A stretch of DNA of 28,354 nucleotides, taken from IMG/VR virus record IMGVR_UViG_3300036398_000939, positions 1-28,354 of that record. One strand, given 5' to 3'. This DNA is from a virus. Below, piece by piece: positions 3,608 through 28,268 of the stretch. The notes under the pieces are model-generated. The model did no database searches, was not told the DNA's origin, and worked only from the letters and a program-made list of their open reading frames with translations. A program made the position numbers and the translations under genes. Position 1 is the first letter of the stretch, and the number at the start of each line of letters is the position of its first letter.

Positions 3608-3668
3608 AAACACGCTCAATCTGGCCCCAGCTGGTCAAATATTCACAGGATTAAATGTGGGTTTCGTA

Positions 3669-3697
3669 TTGCTCTTTGTCCGTACGCATGCTTTAAT
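3669..3697 (+). promoter_or_regulatory. Candidate promoter for the rightward small-gene cassette
   Basis: TTGCTC at 3669-3674 and TTTAAT at 3692-3697 are separated by 17 bases, the usual spacing for a housekeeping sigma-factor promoter. The -10 matches five of six consensus bases but lacks the conserved second A, and the -35 is weak. Transcription would start near 3704, just upstream of a ribosome-binding site. It is a plausible but unproven call. Confidence 0.3.
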
Positions 3698-3718
3698 TCT
3701 CTTATCGGCAAGGAGCGA

Positions 3719-3751
3719 ATGTCTCAGCCGGTAGGGGGATTCAAATGTTAG
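3719..3751 (+). CDS. Ten-residue leader mini-ORF (MSQPVGGFKC)
   Basis: A strong AAGGAG site at 3709-3714 precedes ATG at 3719. The frame encodes MSQPVGGFKC and stops at 3749-3751, overlapping the ATG of the next gene at 3745. A G-rich second site (TAGGGGGAT) inside the mini-ORF would serve that next gene. The arrangement suggests a translated leader that couples or gates initiation of the cassette. It may instead be an accident of two nearby ribosome-binding sites. Confidence 0.35.
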   Translation: MSQPVGGFKC

Positions 3752-4050
3752 TTCTTGATCTAGAAAGTCTAATCATCGAAGCTGCTACAGAGCTTGCTAT
3801 CTCTGGCGAGTGCGATCTTCCAGTCGGCAACAAATGGCATGGCGTTGATCTTGTTGCTCCTGGTTATTACGAAGGTATCGCTGATCCAAACAACATGCTT
3901 CTTATCAATGGCGTGCGTCTTGCTGTCGAAGATGAATCAATTCATATTTACAAGTTCGAACAATATGGCGTCGCTGCTTCTGCTTCATTCAAGGGCAAGA
4001 CAATCTCTTCTTCTGTACTCGTTGCGATCGCAAAGGAATGGTTAGCATAA
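3745..4050 (+). CDS. Hypothetical protein, 101 aa; first full gene of the rightward cassette
   Basis: The protein MLVLDLESLIIEAATELAIS... has an N-terminal helix, a Gly/Pro-containing middle (GNKWHGVDLVAPGYYEGI), a beta-type region (IHIYKFEQYG) and a C-terminal helix (SVLVAIAKEWLA). No family is recognised. A GGGGGAT ribosome-binding site precedes the start, which overlaps the mini-ORF stop. The stop overlaps the next start as TAATG. Cassette position suggests an early, host-interaction or control role, which is inference. Confidence 0.7.
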   Translation: MLVLDLESLIIEAATELAISGECDLPVGNKWHGVDLVAPGYYEGIADPNNMLLINGVRLAVEDESIHIYKFEQYGVAASASFKGKTISSSVLVAIAKEWLA

Positions 4051-4304
4051 TGACTCTTAATGACCTTATCGAGCAGCTGCAAGATCTTGTTGATGAATGT
4101 CCTGAGCTCGGCGATCGCGATGTCATGATCGCTACTCAACCTTCTTATCCACTTACTGCTGTTATTGATTGCGTCTCTGTCGTTGATGAAGATGACGAAG
4201 ATGACGAAGATGCTGTGGGTACTGTCTGGATTGCCACTTCTGAAATCGGCTCTTCTTCTTCAGTTTCGCCTTATGCTCCACGAGCTGCATGGGAAGGTTG
4301 CTAA
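4050..4304 (+). CDS. Conserved phage protein of unknown function with acidic linker, 84 aa
   Basis: The start at 4050 was chosen because it overlaps the upstream stop as TAATG; an in-frame ATG at 4038 lies inside the previous gene. The sequence MTLNDLIEQLQDLVDECPEL followed by RDVMIATQPSYPL resembles a small phage family I have seen, in which an N-terminal helix is followed by a Q-P-[SW]-[WY]-P-L strand. A poly-acidic run (DEDDEDDED) follows at about residues 46-54, then a VWIATSEIG strand. The function of the family is unknown to me. Confidence 0.72.
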   Translation: MTLNDLIEQLQDLVDECPELGDRDVMIATQPSYPLTAVIDCVSVVDEDDEDDEDAVGTVWIATSEIGSSSSVSPYAPRAAWEGC

Positions 4305-4306
4305 TC

Positions 4307-4480
4307 ATGCTCGGACAAACAGTTAGCAAGCATCCTGGTCTTCCTGATTGCGATGCCTGCGATGGTCGCTGGCAGGCGCTTTACAAGCGTCAATATCAAC
4401 ATCCAAATGGCGAGCGTTACTGGATGAATGTCTGCGTCTTCTGTGCTCGCAAGAATTGGGATTTCGAGGTGAAGTCATGA
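4307..4480 (+). CDS. Small zinc-ribbon protein, 57 aa
   Basis: Two CxxC pairs (Cys15/Cys18 in DCDACDG and Cys43/Cys46 in VCVFCARK) bracket a 24-residue region, the layout of a zinc ribbon. The start ATG at 4307 lies two bases after the preceding stop with AAGG upstream; the longer frame from 4289 would overlap the previous gene. Its end overlaps the next gene as ATGA. Small zinc ribbons in phage often bind nucleic acid or host proteins. The specific role is unknown. Confidence 0.72.
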   Translation: MLGQTVSKHPGLPDCDACDGRWQALYKRQYQHPNGERYWMNVCVFCARKNWDFEVKS

Positions 4481-4632
4481 GTCATGTTTCCTTCTTCCGC
4501 GAATGCGCCATGTGTGGCACGAATGCGACTTTGGTTCAACGTTGGTTTCGCTATGACAATGGGCAGCAAGAGCTGTTGCCGGTTTGCCCTGGCTGCGCTG
4601 ATCTTCATTCTTCTCTAGTGAAAGGTAAATAA
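4477..4632 (+). CDS. Second small zinc-ribbon protein, 51 aa
   Basis: Cys10/Cys13 (ECAMCGTNA) and Cys37/Cys40 (VCPGCADLH) form a second four-cysteine zinc-ribbon candidate, coupled to the first by an ATGA overlap. Between the pairs lies an aromatic, basic stretch (QRWFRYDNGQQELL). The two proteins share the fold type but little sequence, so they are not an obvious recent duplication. Nucleic-acid or protein binding is likely; the target is unknown. Confidence 0.7.
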   Translation: MSHVSFFRECAMCGTNATLVQRWFRYDNGQQELLPVCPGCADLHSSLVKGK

Positions 4633-4806
4633 ATGGGTGCTATGAAGTCTTTGCTTATCGATATCAGCGATGCCATGACTTTGGCTGGTCGCAATCTTGT
4701 TGATGCTTCGGATTCTCAGGATCCTGAATTGATGGAGGCGGTCTTGGTAAATGTCTTGCATGCGCTCCCTTCTTATCTGGAAGTTTTGCGCCAGGTGAAG
4801 CCATGA
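4633..4806 (+). CDS. Hypothetical helical protein, 57 aa
   Basis: Translation from the ATG at 4633, directly after the preceding TAA, gives MGAMKSLLIDISDAMTLAGR and then an acidic middle (DASDSQDPELMEAV) and a hydrophobic helix (LVNVLHALPSYLEVLRQV). It looks like a small soluble helical protein. It ends in an ATGA overlap with the next gene. No family is recognised; gap-free packing in the cassette supports it being real. Confidence 0.62.
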   Translation: MGAMKSLLIDISDAMTLAGRNLVDASDSQDPELMEAVLVNVLHALPSYLEVLRQVKP

Positions 4807-4970
4807 ATATGGATCCCAAGTTTGTCCGTCGTCGTCGGATCGTAGCTGCGATCGTCGGTGCTCTGGTGCTTAGCTTGTTTACCTACGCCACCGGCGATAT
4901 CTGCTGGACTGAATCTGGCTACGGATCGTGTTCCCAAATGATCGAGGAGGAGGTTAATCGTGGCCGTTAA
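4803..4970 (+). CDS. Small single-span membrane protein, 55 aa
   Basis: The protein begins MNMDPKFVRRRR, a basic stretch consistent with an inside N-terminus, followed by a transmembrane segment (IVAAIVGALVLSLFTYAT) and an outside part with two cysteines (ICWTES, GSCSQM) that could form a disulfide. It starts in an ATGA overlap with the upstream gene. Its last codons overlap the start of the ribbon-helix-helix gene, whose ribosome-binding site lies inside it. Function is unknown; an envelope-acting early protein is possible. Confidence 0.62.
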   Translation: MNMDPKFVRRRRIVAAIVGALVLSLFTYATGDICWTESGYGSCSQMIEEEVNRGR

Positions 4971-5091
4971 GAAGGCTCGTTCTGTCCGAGTTTCGGATCC
5001 CCTGTGGGCTGCTGTCAAAGCCAAAGCCGCTGCCGATAAAGTTTCGGTCTCTGAGGTCATCGTTGATGCGCTAAAGGCGTATATCCGATGA
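4960..5091 (+). CDS. Ribbon-helix-helix DNA-binding protein, 43 aa, GTG start
   Basis: From GTG at 4960 the protein has a short strand (ARSVRVSDP) followed by two helices (LWAAVKAKAAADK and VSEVIVDALKAYIR). This is the Arc/MetJ/CopG ribbon-helix-helix plan at its minimum size; the strand residues would contact DNA bases in a dimer. A strong GAGGAGGAGG site lies about seven bases upstream. The end overlaps the next gene as ATGA. Such proteins usually repress transcription, often of their own operon, so the inverted repeats at 3569-3607 are candidate sites. The short length and GTG start make it easy to miss. Confidence 0.75.
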   Translation: MAVKKARSVRVSDPLWAAVKAKAAADKVSVSEVIVDALKAYIR

Positions 5092-5330
5092 GCTGGTGGA
5101 ACCTTCTGGCTGCACCGATCGCTGGCGTTCTAGCTCTGGCTTATGGTCGCCGTCTTTCCTTCTGGATTCTCTTTGCCCTTTGCTTCGGCTTCTGGTCTTT
5201 GCTGATTATTCTTCTGCCGCGCAAAGAGCTGCGCATTCCTACTCTTCCTTCCTGGTTGCTTGTTTTCTGGGGCAACCGGCAGATCGCTCGAATCATGCGT
5301 CCGATTCGAGATCCGTCCGATTTGATCTAG
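5088..5330 (+). CDS. Two-span membrane protein, 80 aa; last gene of the rightward cassette
   Basis: Two hydrophobic segments are seen: LLAAPIAGVLALAYG (residues 6-20) and FWILFALCFGFWSLLIILL (residues 25-43), separated by a short basic turn (RRLS). A Trp-rich stretch and a basic tail (NRQIARIMRPIR) follow. The start overlaps the ribbon-helix-helix gene as ATGA. A rho-independent terminator follows closely. No family is recognised; membrane proteins beside a repressor-like gene can act in superinfection exclusion, but that is only an inference here. Confidence 0.7.
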   Translation: MSWWNLLAAPIAGVLALAYGRRLSFWILFALCFGFWSLLIILLPRKELRIPTLPSWLLVFWGNRQIARIMRPIRDPSDLI

Positions 5331-5344
5331 GGACAGGGACGCGC

Positions 5345-5389
5345 AAAGCCCCCCATCGCTCGTAGACGGCGGTGGGGGGTTTTGCTTTG
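5345..5389 (+). terminator. Rho-independent terminator of the rightward cassette
   Basis: CCCCCCATCGC at 5349-5359 pairs with GCGGTGGGGGG at 5369-5379 (eleven pairs including one G-U wobble) around a nine-base loop, followed by TTTTGCTTT. It lies just after the 5330 stop and between converging operons. The opposite strand has no T-tract after the stem, so it works best rightward. The rest of the gap (5331-5441) holds nothing else recognisable. Confidence 0.88.
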
Positions 5390-6302: not shown

Positions 6303-7021
6303 GCGAGCCATTCTGCCAGATATCTGTCGCTGCCTGTTTCGGCTTTAGCTCTTTGCTGGTCTACGTCGAAGATGTAGCGGTCATTCTCGTCCAGAGCTGC
6401 GCCAATGTGATGCAGGGTTGCTTCTTTGGCCATTGGGAATGTCTTGACGGCCGATATTCCTTCTGCCTGGCTGTCGTATGTTTCGTCATGGATTAGGCAG
6501 CTGTCTTTGATCCGGGGCCAGATTTCGGCGGCCAGCCAGTCCTGGTCTTGCGTGTAATAATCCTTGCTCTGTTGCTCTTCTAACAGCTGCGCTATCTCTG
6601 GAATCGCCCCTTTACGAGCTGCGAACATTCCTGCACTGATCTTGTAATTGTGGCCGATCGGGTGGTCTTTCATGATGTGAAAGTCTAGTTTGCTGGCTAG
6701 AAAGTCTTCGTGGGCGATGCGCTCTCGCCTGGTTAGCCTGGCGTCTGCGTCTCTGCTTAGCACCACGTCTGCTTCTTCATCGGCTAGGGCGGCAAATCGC
6801 CAGAGTTTGGCTGTGTGGTCTTCGGAACCTTCGCACCTAACGATTTTAACGTTTGGAAGCAATTGCAACGTGCTTGTTACCCATTCTGGCACGCTTGCCC
6901 CGGTGTAGAATCGTATTTCGTATCCGAAGAAGTGCTTCTGCGCCAGGATCGCGTTCTTGATGGCTCCGATTGTGTATCGTTCCTGGCTGCCGTATAGCGA
7001 ATAGGCGATGACCTGCTTCAT
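6299..7021 (-). CDS. GT-A-type glycosyltransferase, 240 aa
   Basis: The protein starts MKQVIAYSLYGSQERYTIGA, has a WRFAAL stretch at 74-79 and then VVLSRDADARL, where Asp91-x-Asp93 is the DxD metal and nucleotide-sugar site of GT-A glycosyltransferases. The second half has a DWLAAEIWP block and several His and Asp residues. It resembles capsule- or teichoic-acid-type transferases that act on a nucleotide-sugar donor. It overlaps the GT upstream as an ATGA-type junction at 7018-7021 and the epimerase at 6299-6302. The acceptor is not evident. Confidence 0.78.
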   Translation of the reverse strand: MKQVIAYSLYGSQERYTIGAIKNAILAQKHFFGYEIRFYTGASVPEWVTSTLQLLPNVKIVRCEGSEDHTAKLWRFAALADEEADVVLSRDADARLTRRERIAHEDFLASKLDFHIMKDHPIGHNYKISAGMFAARKGAIPEIAQLLEEQQSKDYYTQDQDWLAAEIWPRIKDSCLIHDETYDSQAEGISAVKTFPMAKEATLHHIGAALDENDRYIFDVDQQRAKAETGSDRYLAEWLA

Positions 7022-7695: not shown

Positions 7696-7961
7696 TCCTG
7701 GCTCCAAGTTGCCAATTCGCCGGCTATCGCTGCGTAGGCGGCTAGATCTATGAACGAGTCTTCAGTCTGGGTTTCCATCAGGCGTGCGACTTTGACCAGG
7801 GCCATGCAGATCGCTACTTGCTCTGGTGCTATCTCTGTTTCCAGGTAGGTCGTCCAAAGCGCTGCTATCCGGCAGTGGTTGGTTCTGGGATCCCCGTATG
7901 TTTTCTGGCGATCGGTGGCGGTGAGTCTTGCTGCTTCTTTAAGAATATCCCCCCGATTCAT
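7692..7961 (-). CDS. DUF6378-like phage protein, 89 aa
   Basis: The sequence has the pattern ILKEAARLTATDRQKTYGDP, then NHCRIAALWTTYL, PEQVAICMALVKVARL and DSFIDLAAYAAIAGEL. I recognise this all-helical pattern as the phage family DUF6378. The conserved Asp, His and Lys/Arg residues on the helices are reminiscent of small all-alpha nucleotide pyrophosphohydrolases, but that link is inference. It lies between the lysis cassette and the sugar genes and is coupled to the glycosyltransferase by ATGA. Confidence 0.75.
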   Translation of the reverse strand: MNRGDILKEAARLTATDRQKTYGDPRTNHCRIAALWTTYLETEIAPEQVAICMALVKVARLMETQTEDSFIDLAAYAAIAGELATWSQE

Positions 7962-12149: not shown

Positions 12150-12850
12150 TAGGCAATATCACCTGTCACCAGCCAGATGTCGGTTGCGATCTTGATGCAA
12201 GAAGCAACCGAATTGACCACACGAAGTTTCGGCGCTGTGCTGGTTGCGCCGGTGCTGAGCACTGTTGTTGTTCCGCTTGTTACTGCGTTGATCGTTGGTT
12301 GTCCTGCGCCGGTGATCCAGGCGACGTTTATCTGCGTTCCCACAGGGTAGGCAACGGATGCGTTTGTTGGAATTGACAGCGTTTGCGCTGAGGCGTTATT
12401 CGATGTTACTAGCTTGCCGTTATCAGCTAGAACGAAAGTGTAGGTTGTTGCGGTGTTTGCGTTGATGCCGAGATTGATCAATGGCGAAGTCAAAGTCTTA
12501 TTGGTTAGCGTTTGGGCAGTTGTCAGATCGACTGTTGTTCCTGTATCGATTGAAAGGGTGACCGCGCCCGAGCTGCCGCCGCCTGTCAATCCTGTGCCGG
12601 CTGTTACTCCGGTGATGTCTCCTGGGTTGGAAACTGATTGCCACGCTGCGCCGTCGTAGTATTCGAAGGCGTTTGTATCGGCCAGATATGAGAACATTCC
12701 TTCGACCACGACGCCACTGAGAGCTGTGTTTCTTGCAGTGCTGCTCGCAAAGTACATGATTGTCTGGTTTTGCAGGTTGTATTGCACCTGAGCTGCTGTT
12801 AGCACGTCTCCTGTGACGAATAACTTATATCCGGCGTTTGCTGTTGGCAT
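12149..12850 (-). CDS. Tail fibre protein, 233 aa
   Basis: The protein begins MPTANAGYKLFVTGDVLTAA, then has FEYYDGAAWQSV and GDITGVTAGTGLTGGGSSGA, a repeat motif widespread in phage tail fibres, followed by TLTNKTLTSPLIN (another tail-fibre signature). The remainder is beta-rich with many Thr and Ser residues. It is probably a trimeric side or tip fibre. A TAAGGAG site that overlaps the previous stop precedes the start. It is upstream of the three receptor-binding-type paralogues, which suggests one tail-tip operon. Confidence 0.82.
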   Translation of the reverse strand: MPTANAGYKLFVTGDVLTAAQVQYNLQNQTIMYFASSTARNTALSGVVVEGMFSYLADTNAFEYYDGAAWQSVSNPGDITGVTAGTGLTGGGSSGAVTLSIDTGTTVDLTTAQTLTNKTLTSPLINLGINANTATTYTFVLADNGKLVTSNNASAQTLSIPTNASVAYPVGTQINVAWITGAGQPTINAVTSGTTTVLSTGATSTAPKLRVVNSVASCIKIATDIWLVTGDIA

Positions 12851-12858
12851 GGTTCTCC

Positions 12859-14121
12859 TTAGTAGCTCAGGATTCCTGAGTCTAGCAGTCCTTGTAAATT
12901 AGAATCTAAAATAAAGGCTTGAATGATTGGCTCAGAAGTTAGCAGCTTCGTTTGCCATGTTTGTGGGGTTATGTCGTGCTGTATTCCTTGTACGAATAGT
13001 TCTCTGGTCATTGCGGATCCGCCGGGGGCGGTTTTGGTTATATTTACCAGCCCAAAGATGTCAAGGCTTAACCCTGCGTCTATTCTTGCTGGCTCTGTTG
13101 CTTCCATTAAGTTCAGAGTCATCGAGTCGATGCGTATCGTGGCATTCTCGCGTGATCCTAGAATCATGCTTGCCTGGCTTAGCGCTTCATCGTCGGTTTG
13201 TACGAGGATCCCTTCTCGCTTTCCAGAGTGGATGAAGAAGGTTTCGATGCTGCTTGTCGATTGAACATTCTGCGCAACGCCGTTTAGTCTGGTCACTGTC
13301 ACATCGTTCAGAATGAGTGTGTCGTCGAAGGCGAAGTCGATACCCTGGTAGGAGATTCCTGTGCCGGTGTCGCTAAACACTACTGGCGTTGCGTCTGCCT
13401 TCTTGCTTACTGTGTCGCGTGATAGGAATGTCGCGTTGCCTTCTGGGTCTAGGTAGAAGCCGCCAAATTCGCTGTTCTCGACTGTTTGTATAGCTGTGAG
13501 CAGGTCGCGCTCGGTTCCTGGATCTGCTTGCATCTGGCTGTTTCCGGCATTGATCACTCGTTGCGAATTGGGCCATGAAGCCACGTCAAGTAGGTCTTCA
13601 ATTCTGGCTCCGCTGAGCTGCCCTGCACTGGTTCCTGCGACTGTGGATATGCCTACGCTGTTAAGCAGGCGGAATCCGTCCACGCAGGACAGGGTCACTG
13701 TTGATATCTCTTCTGCGCCAAGCACGAATCCGGTGTCGTAGGAAATGATGTAGCCAGAATAAAGGTAGTACTGCTGCGTTCCTGTGCCATCGTCGTAGTC
13801 TGCCCAGACTCTTATTTTGCGCAGTGGTAGCAGTTTGCCGTAGTAGGGCGATGCGGTATTGAGTGGATTCCAGTCGCCTGTCGTATCTTCTAATACGATG
13901 GTTGCTGATCCTGCTTCGAATTTGTTGAGGATTCGGTTTCGACCGCGTCGTATGCTCACTCGTAGCGCGATGTCTGATACGTCGACGGTGTCTGCTGGCA
14001 CGTCAGCCAGGATTCCGAATCCGAGGCGTCCTGAAACGGTGTCGTCTAGTACGAGTGGGTTGCCGAATGCTGGGCCGTTTGCAAAGTCAACGCTTACTCC
14101 GAGATGTGGCGTTCCTGGCAT
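12859..14121 (-). CDS. Minor tail protein (tail hub/distal-tail type), 420 aa
   Basis: The gene directly follows the tape measure, coupled by TAATG, where siphoviruses encode distal-tail and baseplate-hub proteins. The sequence has an SIRRGRNRILNKFEAGSATI block, a TTGDWNPLNTASPYYGKLLP segment and a beta-rich second half (ITKTAPGGSAMTRELFVQG). I recognise this opening, with the GRNRxLxxFxAGxAxIxLxN pattern, as typical of actinophage minor tail proteins. It likely forms part of the tail tip around the tape measure. Exact subunit identity is not resolved. Confidence 0.8.
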   Translation of the reverse strand: MPGTPHLGVSVDFANGPAFGNPLVLDDTVSGRLGFGILADVPADTVDVSDIALRVSIRRGRNRILNKFEAGSATIVLEDTTGDWNPLNTASPYYGKLLPLRKIRVWADYDDGTGTQQYYLYSGYIISYDTGFVLGAEEISTVTLSCVDGFRLLNSVGISTVAGTSAGQLSGARIEDLLDVASWPNSQRVINAGNSQMQADPGTERDLLTAIQTVENSEFGGFYLDPEGNATFLSRDTVSKKADATPVVFSDTGTGISYQGIDFAFDDTLILNDVTVTRLNGVAQNVQSTSSIETFFIHSGKREGILVQTDDEALSQASMILGSRENATIRIDSMTLNLMEATEPARIDAGLSLDIFGLVNITKTAPGGSAMTRELFVQGIQHDITPQTWQTKLLTSEPIIQAFILDSNLQGLLDSGILSY

Positions 14122-26520: not shown

Positions 26521-26950
26521 GTGATCGCTGCATTAATTCCTGGATGCGTGTTTGTGCTACTACTTCAGCTAGTCCTAGTCGCGATCTTTCGACCGGGTTG
26601 AATGCGATTAGTGAAAGCATGTTTGTGATCTGGTAGTCCAATTGTCTGAGTGCTACGCGATCTCTCCATTCGCCACCGCGAAACACTACGGCGCGTAGTT
26701 GGATTCGTTCATCCATAGTTTCGCAGAGCATCATCACTTGCTCGATGTCTGTCGTAGGCGAGATCCATGCGCGTCCTGCTTGCCAGATTCGTTCCCACAT
26801 CTTTGTGCCTTCTGGCCCTAGTGGGCGCAGTGGATCTGGCGTGTGCTGCGCCATTGGCAGAGCTATTACTTTGCTCTTCTCTGGCAATGGTCGCTTACCT
26901 GGGTTCCCCAATTTACGTTTCTGTTCTATCGGTTTGGGTGGATTAGCCAT
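26513..26950 (-). CDS. terS: Terminase small subunit, P27 type, 145 aa
   Basis: The opening RKLGNPGKRPLPEKSKVIAL with proline-rich linker, then GPEGTKMWERIWQAGRAWIS and DIEQVMMLCETMDE, and a C-terminal helix with FNPVERSRLGLAEV, is the pattern of the P27 small terminase family. It recognises the packaging site and recruits the large subunit. It directly precedes the large subunit with an eight-base overlap, and follows the methyltransferase gene with another eight-base overlap, so it is co-transcribed with both. Confidence 0.9.
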   Translation of the reverse strand: MANPPKPIEQKRKLGNPGKRPLPEKSKVIALPMAQHTPDPLRPLGPEGTKMWERIWQAGRAWISPTTDIEQVMMLCETMDERIQLRAVVFRGGEWRDRVALRQLDYQITNMLSLIAFNPVERSRLGLAEVVAQTRIQELMQRSRG

Positions 26951-28268
26951 TTTCGCTTCCTATGAAATCGTATGTCTTTCCAGTGAGTTCATTGATTGGT
27001 TGAACTCCGGTTAGCAGCTGCCATCGTTTACAGATTACATCTGCGTAGATTGGGTCAAGTTCTACGATCGCTGACTTCATTCCTAGAGAATGAGCTGCGA
27101 TCAGTGTCGATCCTGATCCGCCGAATGGATCCAGCACTAGCGATTCGCTGTTTGCTGAATTGCTTAGGATTCTGGTTATCAAGTTTACTGGCTTCATCGT
27201 TGGATGTTCTGAGTTCCGGCGTGGTCTTGGTTCTCTTATCACTGTTGATGTGCTTCGTGCTGTTTCAATAATGTTTACGAGTTCTGTTTTGCTTAGGGTT
27301 TCTAGTTCCTTTGTTGCAAAGTCTAGAACTGTTGAATCGTTGAATGGCCCATACCAAGGATGTGCTGCGCCTGGCTTCCATCCGTAGATGATTGGTTCAT
27401 GTTGCCAGTTGTAATCTTGGCGGCTAAGTACGAAGTTGTCTTTCACCCAAATCAGTATTTGTTTGAGCATCCATCCTGCACCGGCAAGTGTCGTTCTGAA
27501 TGCTTGGCCGCTTGAGTCTGCGTGGCAAACATAGATTGGGCATCCTGCTTTCGCGTTCTGGTACATGGCTGCGTAGACCGCGAGCAGGAAGGATTCAAAT
27601 TCTAGTTCTGTCATTGCGTCGTTCTGGATTGTTAGTCCTTCACTGGTTCCGCCTGTGTATGCGACGTTGTATGGCGGATCTGTGAAGATGCAATCTGCCA
27701 GTTTGTTATCTAGCGCCTTTGCCAGGATCGCTGGATCCGTTGAGTCTCCAACCACTAATCTGTGCGGCCCTAGAATCCATACGTCGCCTTCGATGCTGTG
27801 CGCCTGGCGTGGTTTGCCTGGTGCTTCATCTAGATCGCCAGTCATCGGTATCTCTTCTACCGGTATTTTCAGAATCTCTGCGATCGCTTCTGCGCTGTAG
27901 CCTGCGTCGCTTACCAATTCGGGATCGACGTTTACGAGCTGCGAGATCATTTCGCGAAGCGCTTCTTCGTCGTAGGTTCCAAGTTCCGCTGTGCGGTTAT
28001 CGGCTAGTGCGAATGCTTTAGCTGTGCTGTCGTCATCGTCTGTCCAGACGACCGCGATCTCTGTCCAGCCAAGTTGCTTCGCTGCTTTCCATGTGTGGTT
28101 GCCGGCGATGATGGTTCCGTCGCTGTGTCTGGCCACCACCGGCTTTCGCTGTCCGAAGCGTTCTAGCGATCGGGCTACGGCGGCCACGTCGCCTATGCGT
28201 GGGTTTCCTGGCAGTGGATGCAGATCGTCGATCGGCGTTGCCAGAGCTTGCAGGTTTTCATTGATCAT
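26943..28268 (-). CDS. ParB/Srx-like domain fused to a DNA methyltransferase, 441 aa
   Basis: Residues 1-95 are a ParB N-terminal-like domain (IDDLHPLPGNPRIGDV, then RKPVVARHSDGTIIAGNHTW), often fused to phage methyltransferases. From about 160 comes the catalytic part: FTDPPYNVAYTG with DPPY at 197-200, then HPTMKP at 355-360 and DPFGGSGST (380-388), the AdoMet-binding motif. DPPY lying N-terminal to FGGSGS is the beta-class order. It probably methylates adenine N6 or cytosine N4 to protect phage DNA or to mark packaging sites. An AAGGGGGAA site precedes the start. It is the first gene of the packaging operon. Confidence 0.92.
   Translation of the reverse strand: MINENLQALATPIDDLHPLPGNPRIGDVAAVARSLERFGQRKPVVARHSDGTIIAGNHTWKAAKQLGWTEIAVVWTDDDDSTAKAFALADNRTAELGTYDEEALREMISQLVNVDPELVSDAGYSAEAIAEILKIPVEEIPMTGDLDEAPGKPRQAHSIEGDVWILGPHRLVVGDSTDPAILAKALDNKLADCIFTDPPYNVAYTGGTSEGLTIQNDAMTELEFESFLLAVYAAMYQNAKAGCPIYVCHADSSGQAFRTTLAGAGWMLKQILIWVKDNFVLSRQDYNWQHEPIIYGWKPGAAHPWYGPFNDSTVLDFATKELETLSKTELVNIIETARSTSTVIREPRPRRNSEHPTMKPVNLITRILSNSANSESLVLDPFGGSGSTLIAAHSLGMKSAIVELDPIYADVICKRWQLLTGVQPINELTGKTYDFIGSENG

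Follow-up and report, generated by a model that had tools for sequence, protein, structure and literature searches.

A covarying RNA hairpin leader at the head of a variable small-gene cassette in uncultured phages of probable actinobacterial hosts

Related systems and the phage genome

The nearest described sequence elements to the leader analysed here are SAS and extended SAS (ESAS) of the cluster K mycobacteriophages, with the 13-bp sequence GGGATAGGAGCCC in 11–19 copies per genome, for which RNA pairing is unsupported by the authors' account (PMC3203893). In both cases, conserved inverted repeats stand just upstream of the starts of small non-structural genes in actinobacteriophages. Our leader differs in its sequence, in its number (a single copy per genome, except for one phage with two), in its clear RNA covariation and in being tied to the head of one operon. 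A scan for GGGATAGGAGCCC in the window, i.e. the whole stretch of DNA analysed, which is a linear IMG/VR virus record of 28,354 bases, gave two matches with 2 mismatches (0.37 expected), neither of them in the cassette. Structured RNAs preceding phage genes are also known from cyanophages: manA, wcaG and PhotoRC-II are conserved and may be parts of 5′ UTRs (PMC2864571). Their hosts, gene contexts and structures are different from those found here, and our leader had no Rfam match. The 5′-terminal stem-loops of ompA and papA are described as stabilising mRNA in work referred to in PMC3997798. They share with the leader a hairpin that lies at or very near the 5′ end (inferred here) and not far from the ribosome site, whereas in our case the loop and internal loop sequences are conserved as well and the element precedes different genes.

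The take-over module of SPO1 consists of 26 genes in the terminal region of the genome, which were experimentally found to be early and partly toxic and which have strong promoters (PMC6873191). Our cassette likewise comprises small non-structural genes in one block, mostly of unknown function and apart from the structural and replication genes; no sequence common to both was found, however. Among CopG/Arc-type regulators, the product of the seventh cassette gene is a minimal ribbon-helix-helix (RHH) domain; unlike the known regulators, it belongs to the constant portion of an otherwise variable operon. We rate the structured leader as new, the accessory operon as being of a familiar general type and phage leader RNAs as such as known.

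The window represents a siphovirus-type genome with genes on the − strand for the small and large terminase, portal, protease, capsid and tail proteins, an endolysin-like gene, glycosyltransferase-like genes and an epimerase. Past the cassette lie genes for a resolvase, a WhiB-like regulator and a Cas4/RecB-type exonuclease. The structural gene names were read from the sequences, that of the terminase also from a search for relatives. The best relative of the large terminase was that of Pontimonas phage phiPsal1 (48%), and many other relatives came from actinobacterial phages. Both the WhiB gene and this best terminase relative point to an actinobacterial host. The uncultured phages bearing the cassette probably infect aquatic actinobacteria; a search for a host genome found none. 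The gene order of phiPsal1 is broadly similar and includes WhiB and Holliday-junction resolvase genes, but where the cassette would lie, this phage carries just one HTH gene on the opposite strand, and it lacks both the cassette and the hairpin. A DNA search of phage records gave a sole match, 50 bp to mycobacteriophages at 7777–7826, outside the cassette, and a tRNA search of the window gave none. An ORF at 26943–28268 (−), upstream of the small terminase gene, resembles, judged by its sequence, a ParB-type N-terminal part fused to an N6 DNA methyltransferase. Among 25 related records, some of them fragments, only L009 encodes a 265-aa tyrosine recombinase, located between its tail and lysis genes (12536–13333, −) and absent from the 24 others.

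A small-gene cassette with a constant tail and an exchangeable head

The preliminary description of the locus as a reversed, tightly coupled block of eight small genes with defined boundaries was borne out. The eight ORFs (Table 1) tile 3745–5330 of the + strand with overlaps or few-base gaps; those phage genes that could be recognised in the window are on the other strand. The cassette extends from a 242-bp divergent region on one side to an 18-pair terminator on the other. These coordinates hold for the genes and not for the start of the transcription unit, as a promoter-like stretch and the hairpin lie just outside them.

Table 1 Features of the cassette locus in the window
Feature	Position	Strand	Remarks
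Conserved box ATTCACAGGA	3641–3650	+	From the leader alignment; close to the left end of the 130-nt unit of L019
Putative promoter	3669–3697	+	−35-like TTGCTC (3669–3674), 17-bp spacer, −10-like TTTAAT (3692–3697)
Two-helix RNA hairpin leader	3704–3732	+	Covariation; three loop classes
Helix 1 of the leader	3704–3709 with 3727–3732	+
Helix 2 of the leader	3713–3715 with 3723–3725	+
Shine-Dalgarno GGGGG of the first gene	3734–3738	+	1 nt past the hairpin
g1, family F5	3745–4050	+	101 aa; fast-evolving; 39/51 cassettes; dN/dS 0.35
g2, family F7	4050–4304	+	84 aa; acidic; unrelated F9 gene instead in L003
g3, family F4	4307–4480	+	57 aa; CxxC...CxxC (zinc-ribbon-like)
g4, family F4	4477–4632	+	51 aa; CxxC...CxxC; clusters with g3
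g5, family F3	4633–4806	+	57 aa; mostly constant tail gene; 48/51 cassettes
g6, family F0	4803–4970	+	55 aa; 51/51 cassettes
g7, family F1	4960–5091	+	43 aa; predicted RHH protein; 51/51 cassettes
g8, family F2	5088–5330	+	80 aa; predicted membrane protein; constant last gene; 51/51 cassettes
Intrinsic terminator of the cassette	5343–5385	+	18-pair stem with T-run

Homologous cassettes, collected by searches with g1, g8 and the leader element, were found at the same genomic place in about 59 IMG/VR contigs. A convergent epimerase gene lies 3′ of the cassette, and a strong terminator hairpin directly follows the last gene, in 60/60 loci with sequence on that side; the divergent gene h52 lies upstream in 39/39 loci with sequence there (one contig enters these counts twice). 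Purifying selection was detected in all twelve families measured, with median dN/dS of 0.07–0.35, and the small ORFs are therefore considered real genes. The RHH family had the lowest value of the tail genes (0.09) and g1 the highest overall.

Automated tiling and clustering of 51 cassettes, in which two strings represent both leaders of L019, yielded 35 families and 41 distinct gene strings. The tail families, F3 (in 48 of the 51) followed by F0, F1 and F2 (in all 51), always stand at the end and in this order, with a rare extra gene in between. One to about seven genes, drawn from about 30 small families, several of which contain CxxC pairs, form the head that precedes this tail. The window and L003 differ in g2, which is replaced by an unrelated gene, despite flanks that are 92–95% identical, so that the exchange must be recent; compared with the window, L004 contains one additional gene and its g3 is different. 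The fixed ends mark the locus as a collecting place for small phage genes, which are often missed by standard gene calling, and most of the about 35 families obtained from the 51 cassettes have no known family.

The junction GCATAATG, found in the window at 4045–4052, combines the ribosome site of the next gene with an overlapping stop/start. It occurs in 16 copies in 48 kb of cassette sequence and in none in 128 kb of flanks. Head genes of at least nine unrelated families end alike, often in K-[AV]-[GV]-A, because they have this junction in common, and it may serve as a common linker aiding exchange.

The g1 protein is predicted to fold into a helix, a three-strand sheet and a helix (model pLDDT 87); the search with this fold against structures gave no confident relative. 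Its residues 43–55 (window 3871–3909) form a short hypervariable segment in an otherwise conserved family, differing even between the nearest phages, and are possibly a contact surface under changing selection. The two zinc ribbons originally proposed for the block stand, in g3 and g4, as far as the cysteine motifs are concerned, but neither protein matched a Pfam zinc family at its cut-off. The 43-residue g7 protein is predicted to bind DNA, as had been suggested: it scored 22.1 bits against Pfam RHH_1 (cut-off 20.5) and matched the PHROG 'Arc-like repressor' phrog_6506 (5e-12), while a search of its sequence against solved structures was negative. Its designation as miniature was dropped, since 43 residues are not exceptionally small for this fold; CopG of pMV158 has 45. 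The two membrane proteins were recognised again, g6 with one putative membrane helix, a basic N-terminus and two conserved Cys residues, and g8 with about two hydrophobic helices. The g8 model, of modest confidence (pLDDT 70, pTM 0.29), has helices at residues 3–19, 23–42 and 55–74, and relatives of g8 were absent among 84,980 GTDB species genomes.

The hairpin leader and its promoter region

No DNA of the locus is better conserved than the leader ATCGGCAARGAGCGRATGTCTCRGCCGGT (95–97% vs 50–60% for the gene behind it in the leader alignment), which is non-coding and adjoins the G-rich Shine-Dalgarno sequence. The Shine-Dalgarno sequence is kept in all leaders, helix 1 ends 0–1 nt from it, and the hairpin abuts it whichever gene stands first. 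In class I, the loop and internal loop are nearly invariant and the pairing score was above 500 shuffles. In L024 and L050, the arms of helix 1 of this class, ATCGGC/GCCGGT, have become GTGGGC on one side and GTCTAC or GCCTAC on the other; all pairs are kept and two pairs are altered on both sides. The leaders of these two phages are chimeric, with a class II promoter and outer stem and a class I inner hairpin. More distant cassettes gave two further classes, class II (GTGGGC AAGA GRGGA AAY TCCYC RAG GCCTAC) and class III (ATCGGT AAA GGGG AAAYG CTCC AA ACCGAG), in which the loops are replaced and both helices and their position are kept. An A-rich internal loop is present in all classes.

In an alignment of 13 rows, helix 1 was fully paired with a covariation score of 0.458, which was unmatched by 500 shuffles or by any slid register. 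Helix 2 was fully paired in a 17-row alignment, with A-U to G-C changes; three rows of this alignment are misaligned in helix 1, which lowers the helix 1 count. The leader sequences are related and the covariation counts represent non-independent events, but several pairs in the two helices and three loop classes contribute. Since the energy obtained by single-sequence folding was only modestly below that of shuffled sequences, the case for an RNA is based on covariation. The frequent G-U wobbles spoil the DNA palindrome yet keep the RNA helix, which indicates that the constraint acts on RNA. The leader thus has conserved helices with compensatory changes, as is characteristic of structured cis-regulatory RNAs, and the comparison of leaders demonstrates two-helix pairing in the predicted transcript.

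Among the viral contigs searched, the element was seen solely with the cassette; its 17-nt core was found in 11 further contigs as chance matches without stems. The exact core was absent from the 84,980 GTDB species genomes, and the hairpin from phiPsal1, the nearest isolate. The Rfam 15 covariance models gave chance-level matches and none at the gathering score. Several other readings of the leader were rejected. A tRNA or attP origin is contradicted by the lack of a tRNA in the window, by a resemblance that ends after the stem and by a 3′ flank that is not conserved, and an intrinsic terminator or attenuator by the lack of a U-run after the hairpin. Mimicry of a cellular leader disagrees with the absence of both the core and relatives of the last gene from the species genomes.

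A host σA-type promoter probably precedes the hairpin. In 46 distinct leaders, the spacer is 17 bp in 43 and 18 bp in 3, the −35-like hexamer is TTGCTN or TGGTCA, and the −10-like box, mostly CAAGAT or TAAGTT, is separated from the first paired base by 6 nt in every case, with the −10 frame set by eye. With this fixed spacing, transcription would begin at the first hairpin base. A consensus promoter scan flagged no promoter at 3669–3697. A palindrome in the promoter spacer, a candidate CopG-type operator, is present in some leaders and missing in others. The conserved box ATTCACAGGA lies about 55–65 nt upstream of the hairpin; some relatives have TTATTCACA instead, which is DnaA box-like.

In L019, a promoter-hairpin unit of 130 nt is present in two copies, which lie 930 bp apart and share 93% identity. 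Beginning near the ATTCACAGGA box, the unit includes the hairpin and reaches the first codons, and its second copy precedes a later gene. Because of these two copies, we consider the unit portable.

Possible roles of the leader and the operon

The host-facing accessory role suggested in the preliminary description was upheld in part. It agrees with the fast swapping of the head genes, none of which looks structural, and is at odds with the constant tail of three to four genes and with the lack of any defence or anti-defence match. The cassette content of relatives, with 41 gene strings in 51 cassettes, favours an accessory host-facing operon, and a single conserved gene set with structural roles was not seen among them. 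Searches of the cassette proteins against PADLOC, NCBIfam, Pfam and PHROGs matched no defence or anti-defence family (PADLOC models gave 0 matches with the eight proteins at E up to 1), and profile searches found no match to known take-over or exclusion families. Assignment of a specific protein function by profiles, by the g1 fold or by structures for g7 was also tried and gave nothing beyond the RHH domain. Since the head genes are small, fast-swapped, non-structural and located outside the replication and late operons, they are probably host-facing, comparable in this to the SPO1 take-over module (PMC6873191).

We give about an even chance to the view that the locus is an accessory operon on a fixed frame, whose shared 5′ hairpin makes the mRNA more stable and governs its translation. 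In this scheme, for which we infer the early timing, the effect of the hairpin and the functions of the proteins, a host σA-type promoter would start an mRNA whose first nucleotides fold into the two-helix hairpin. As a common 5′ cap, the hairpin would shield the mRNA end from decay and would present or insulate the first ribosome site alike whatever head gene follows; this is the simplest mechanism, and one known for 5′-terminal stem-loops (references in PMC3997798). The head would provide changing small host-interaction proteins (for take-over, exclusion or anti-defence) made early, and the tail an RHH regulator, most likely autoregulatory on the promoter, together with two small membrane proteins.

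The class I loop sequence is far more conserved than a passive stabiliser needs, which speaks against the hairpin acting as a passive cap. In the main rival view, the hairpin works as a switch. A specific factor, such as a small RNA, an RNA-binding protein of the host or one of the tail or zinc-ribbon proteins encoded in the cassette, would bind it and thereby toggle translation of the whole operon. This can be put forward tentatively: it would account for the nearly invariant loop and internal loop of class I, for the A-rich internal loop kept in all classes, for the closeness of helix 1 to the Shine-Dalgarno sequence and for the duplication of the unit before a second gene in L019, but it does not easily fit the replacement of the loop at a retained position in classes II and III, nor the lack of an Rfam relative. 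It is somewhat doubtful that the portable promoter-hairpin unit represents a novel regulatory RNA class, recognised by a factor and putting captured small genes under one translational switch; if true, such a start module would make newly captured genes at the locus immediately usable. The G-U combinations in the arms, breaking the DNA dyad and keeping the RNA helix, and the covariation of both arms in two helices make it quite unlikely that the conserved stretch is a DNA operator, with the inverted repeat as a protein site, e.g. for the RHH protein, even though the RHH gene is present in every cassette and the site lies at the promoter.

The cassette might also serve temperate phages as an immunity or lysogeny module, in which the RHH protein is the repressor and the other genes are lysogenic conversion genes. 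It lies on the opposite strand between the late and early operons, where phiPsal1 has its single HTH gene of cI/cro type, and g7 matches the PHROG Arc-like repressor. This interpretation is nevertheless unlikely, as an integrase, of the one type sought, was found in 1/25 records (several of them fragments), a lytic life style has been described for phiPsal1 (PMC6106888) and no relatives of the last gene occur in the species genomes. That the leader is conserved as the coding sequence of a regulatory mini-peptide (MSQPVGGFKC, 3719–3751 in the window) is very improbable: the frame to the first gene varies between phages (26 or 27 nt), covariation of the stem alters the codons (CCG GTG to TCT ACG) and an AUG is lacking at this place in classes II and III, despite the resemblance of AAGGAG-CGA-ATG to a start site and the end of the ten-codon ORF of the window on the g1 start.

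The hairpin pattern and covariance model provide a handle in the search for further cassettes, and the leader RNA is a compact test case for constant expression despite gene exchange. Directly after the cassette terminator of L019, about 26 copies of the 11-nt repeat GCTCAATCATC occur at 6340–6700, and a single stretch related to it is located in the divergent region of the window (3614–3626).
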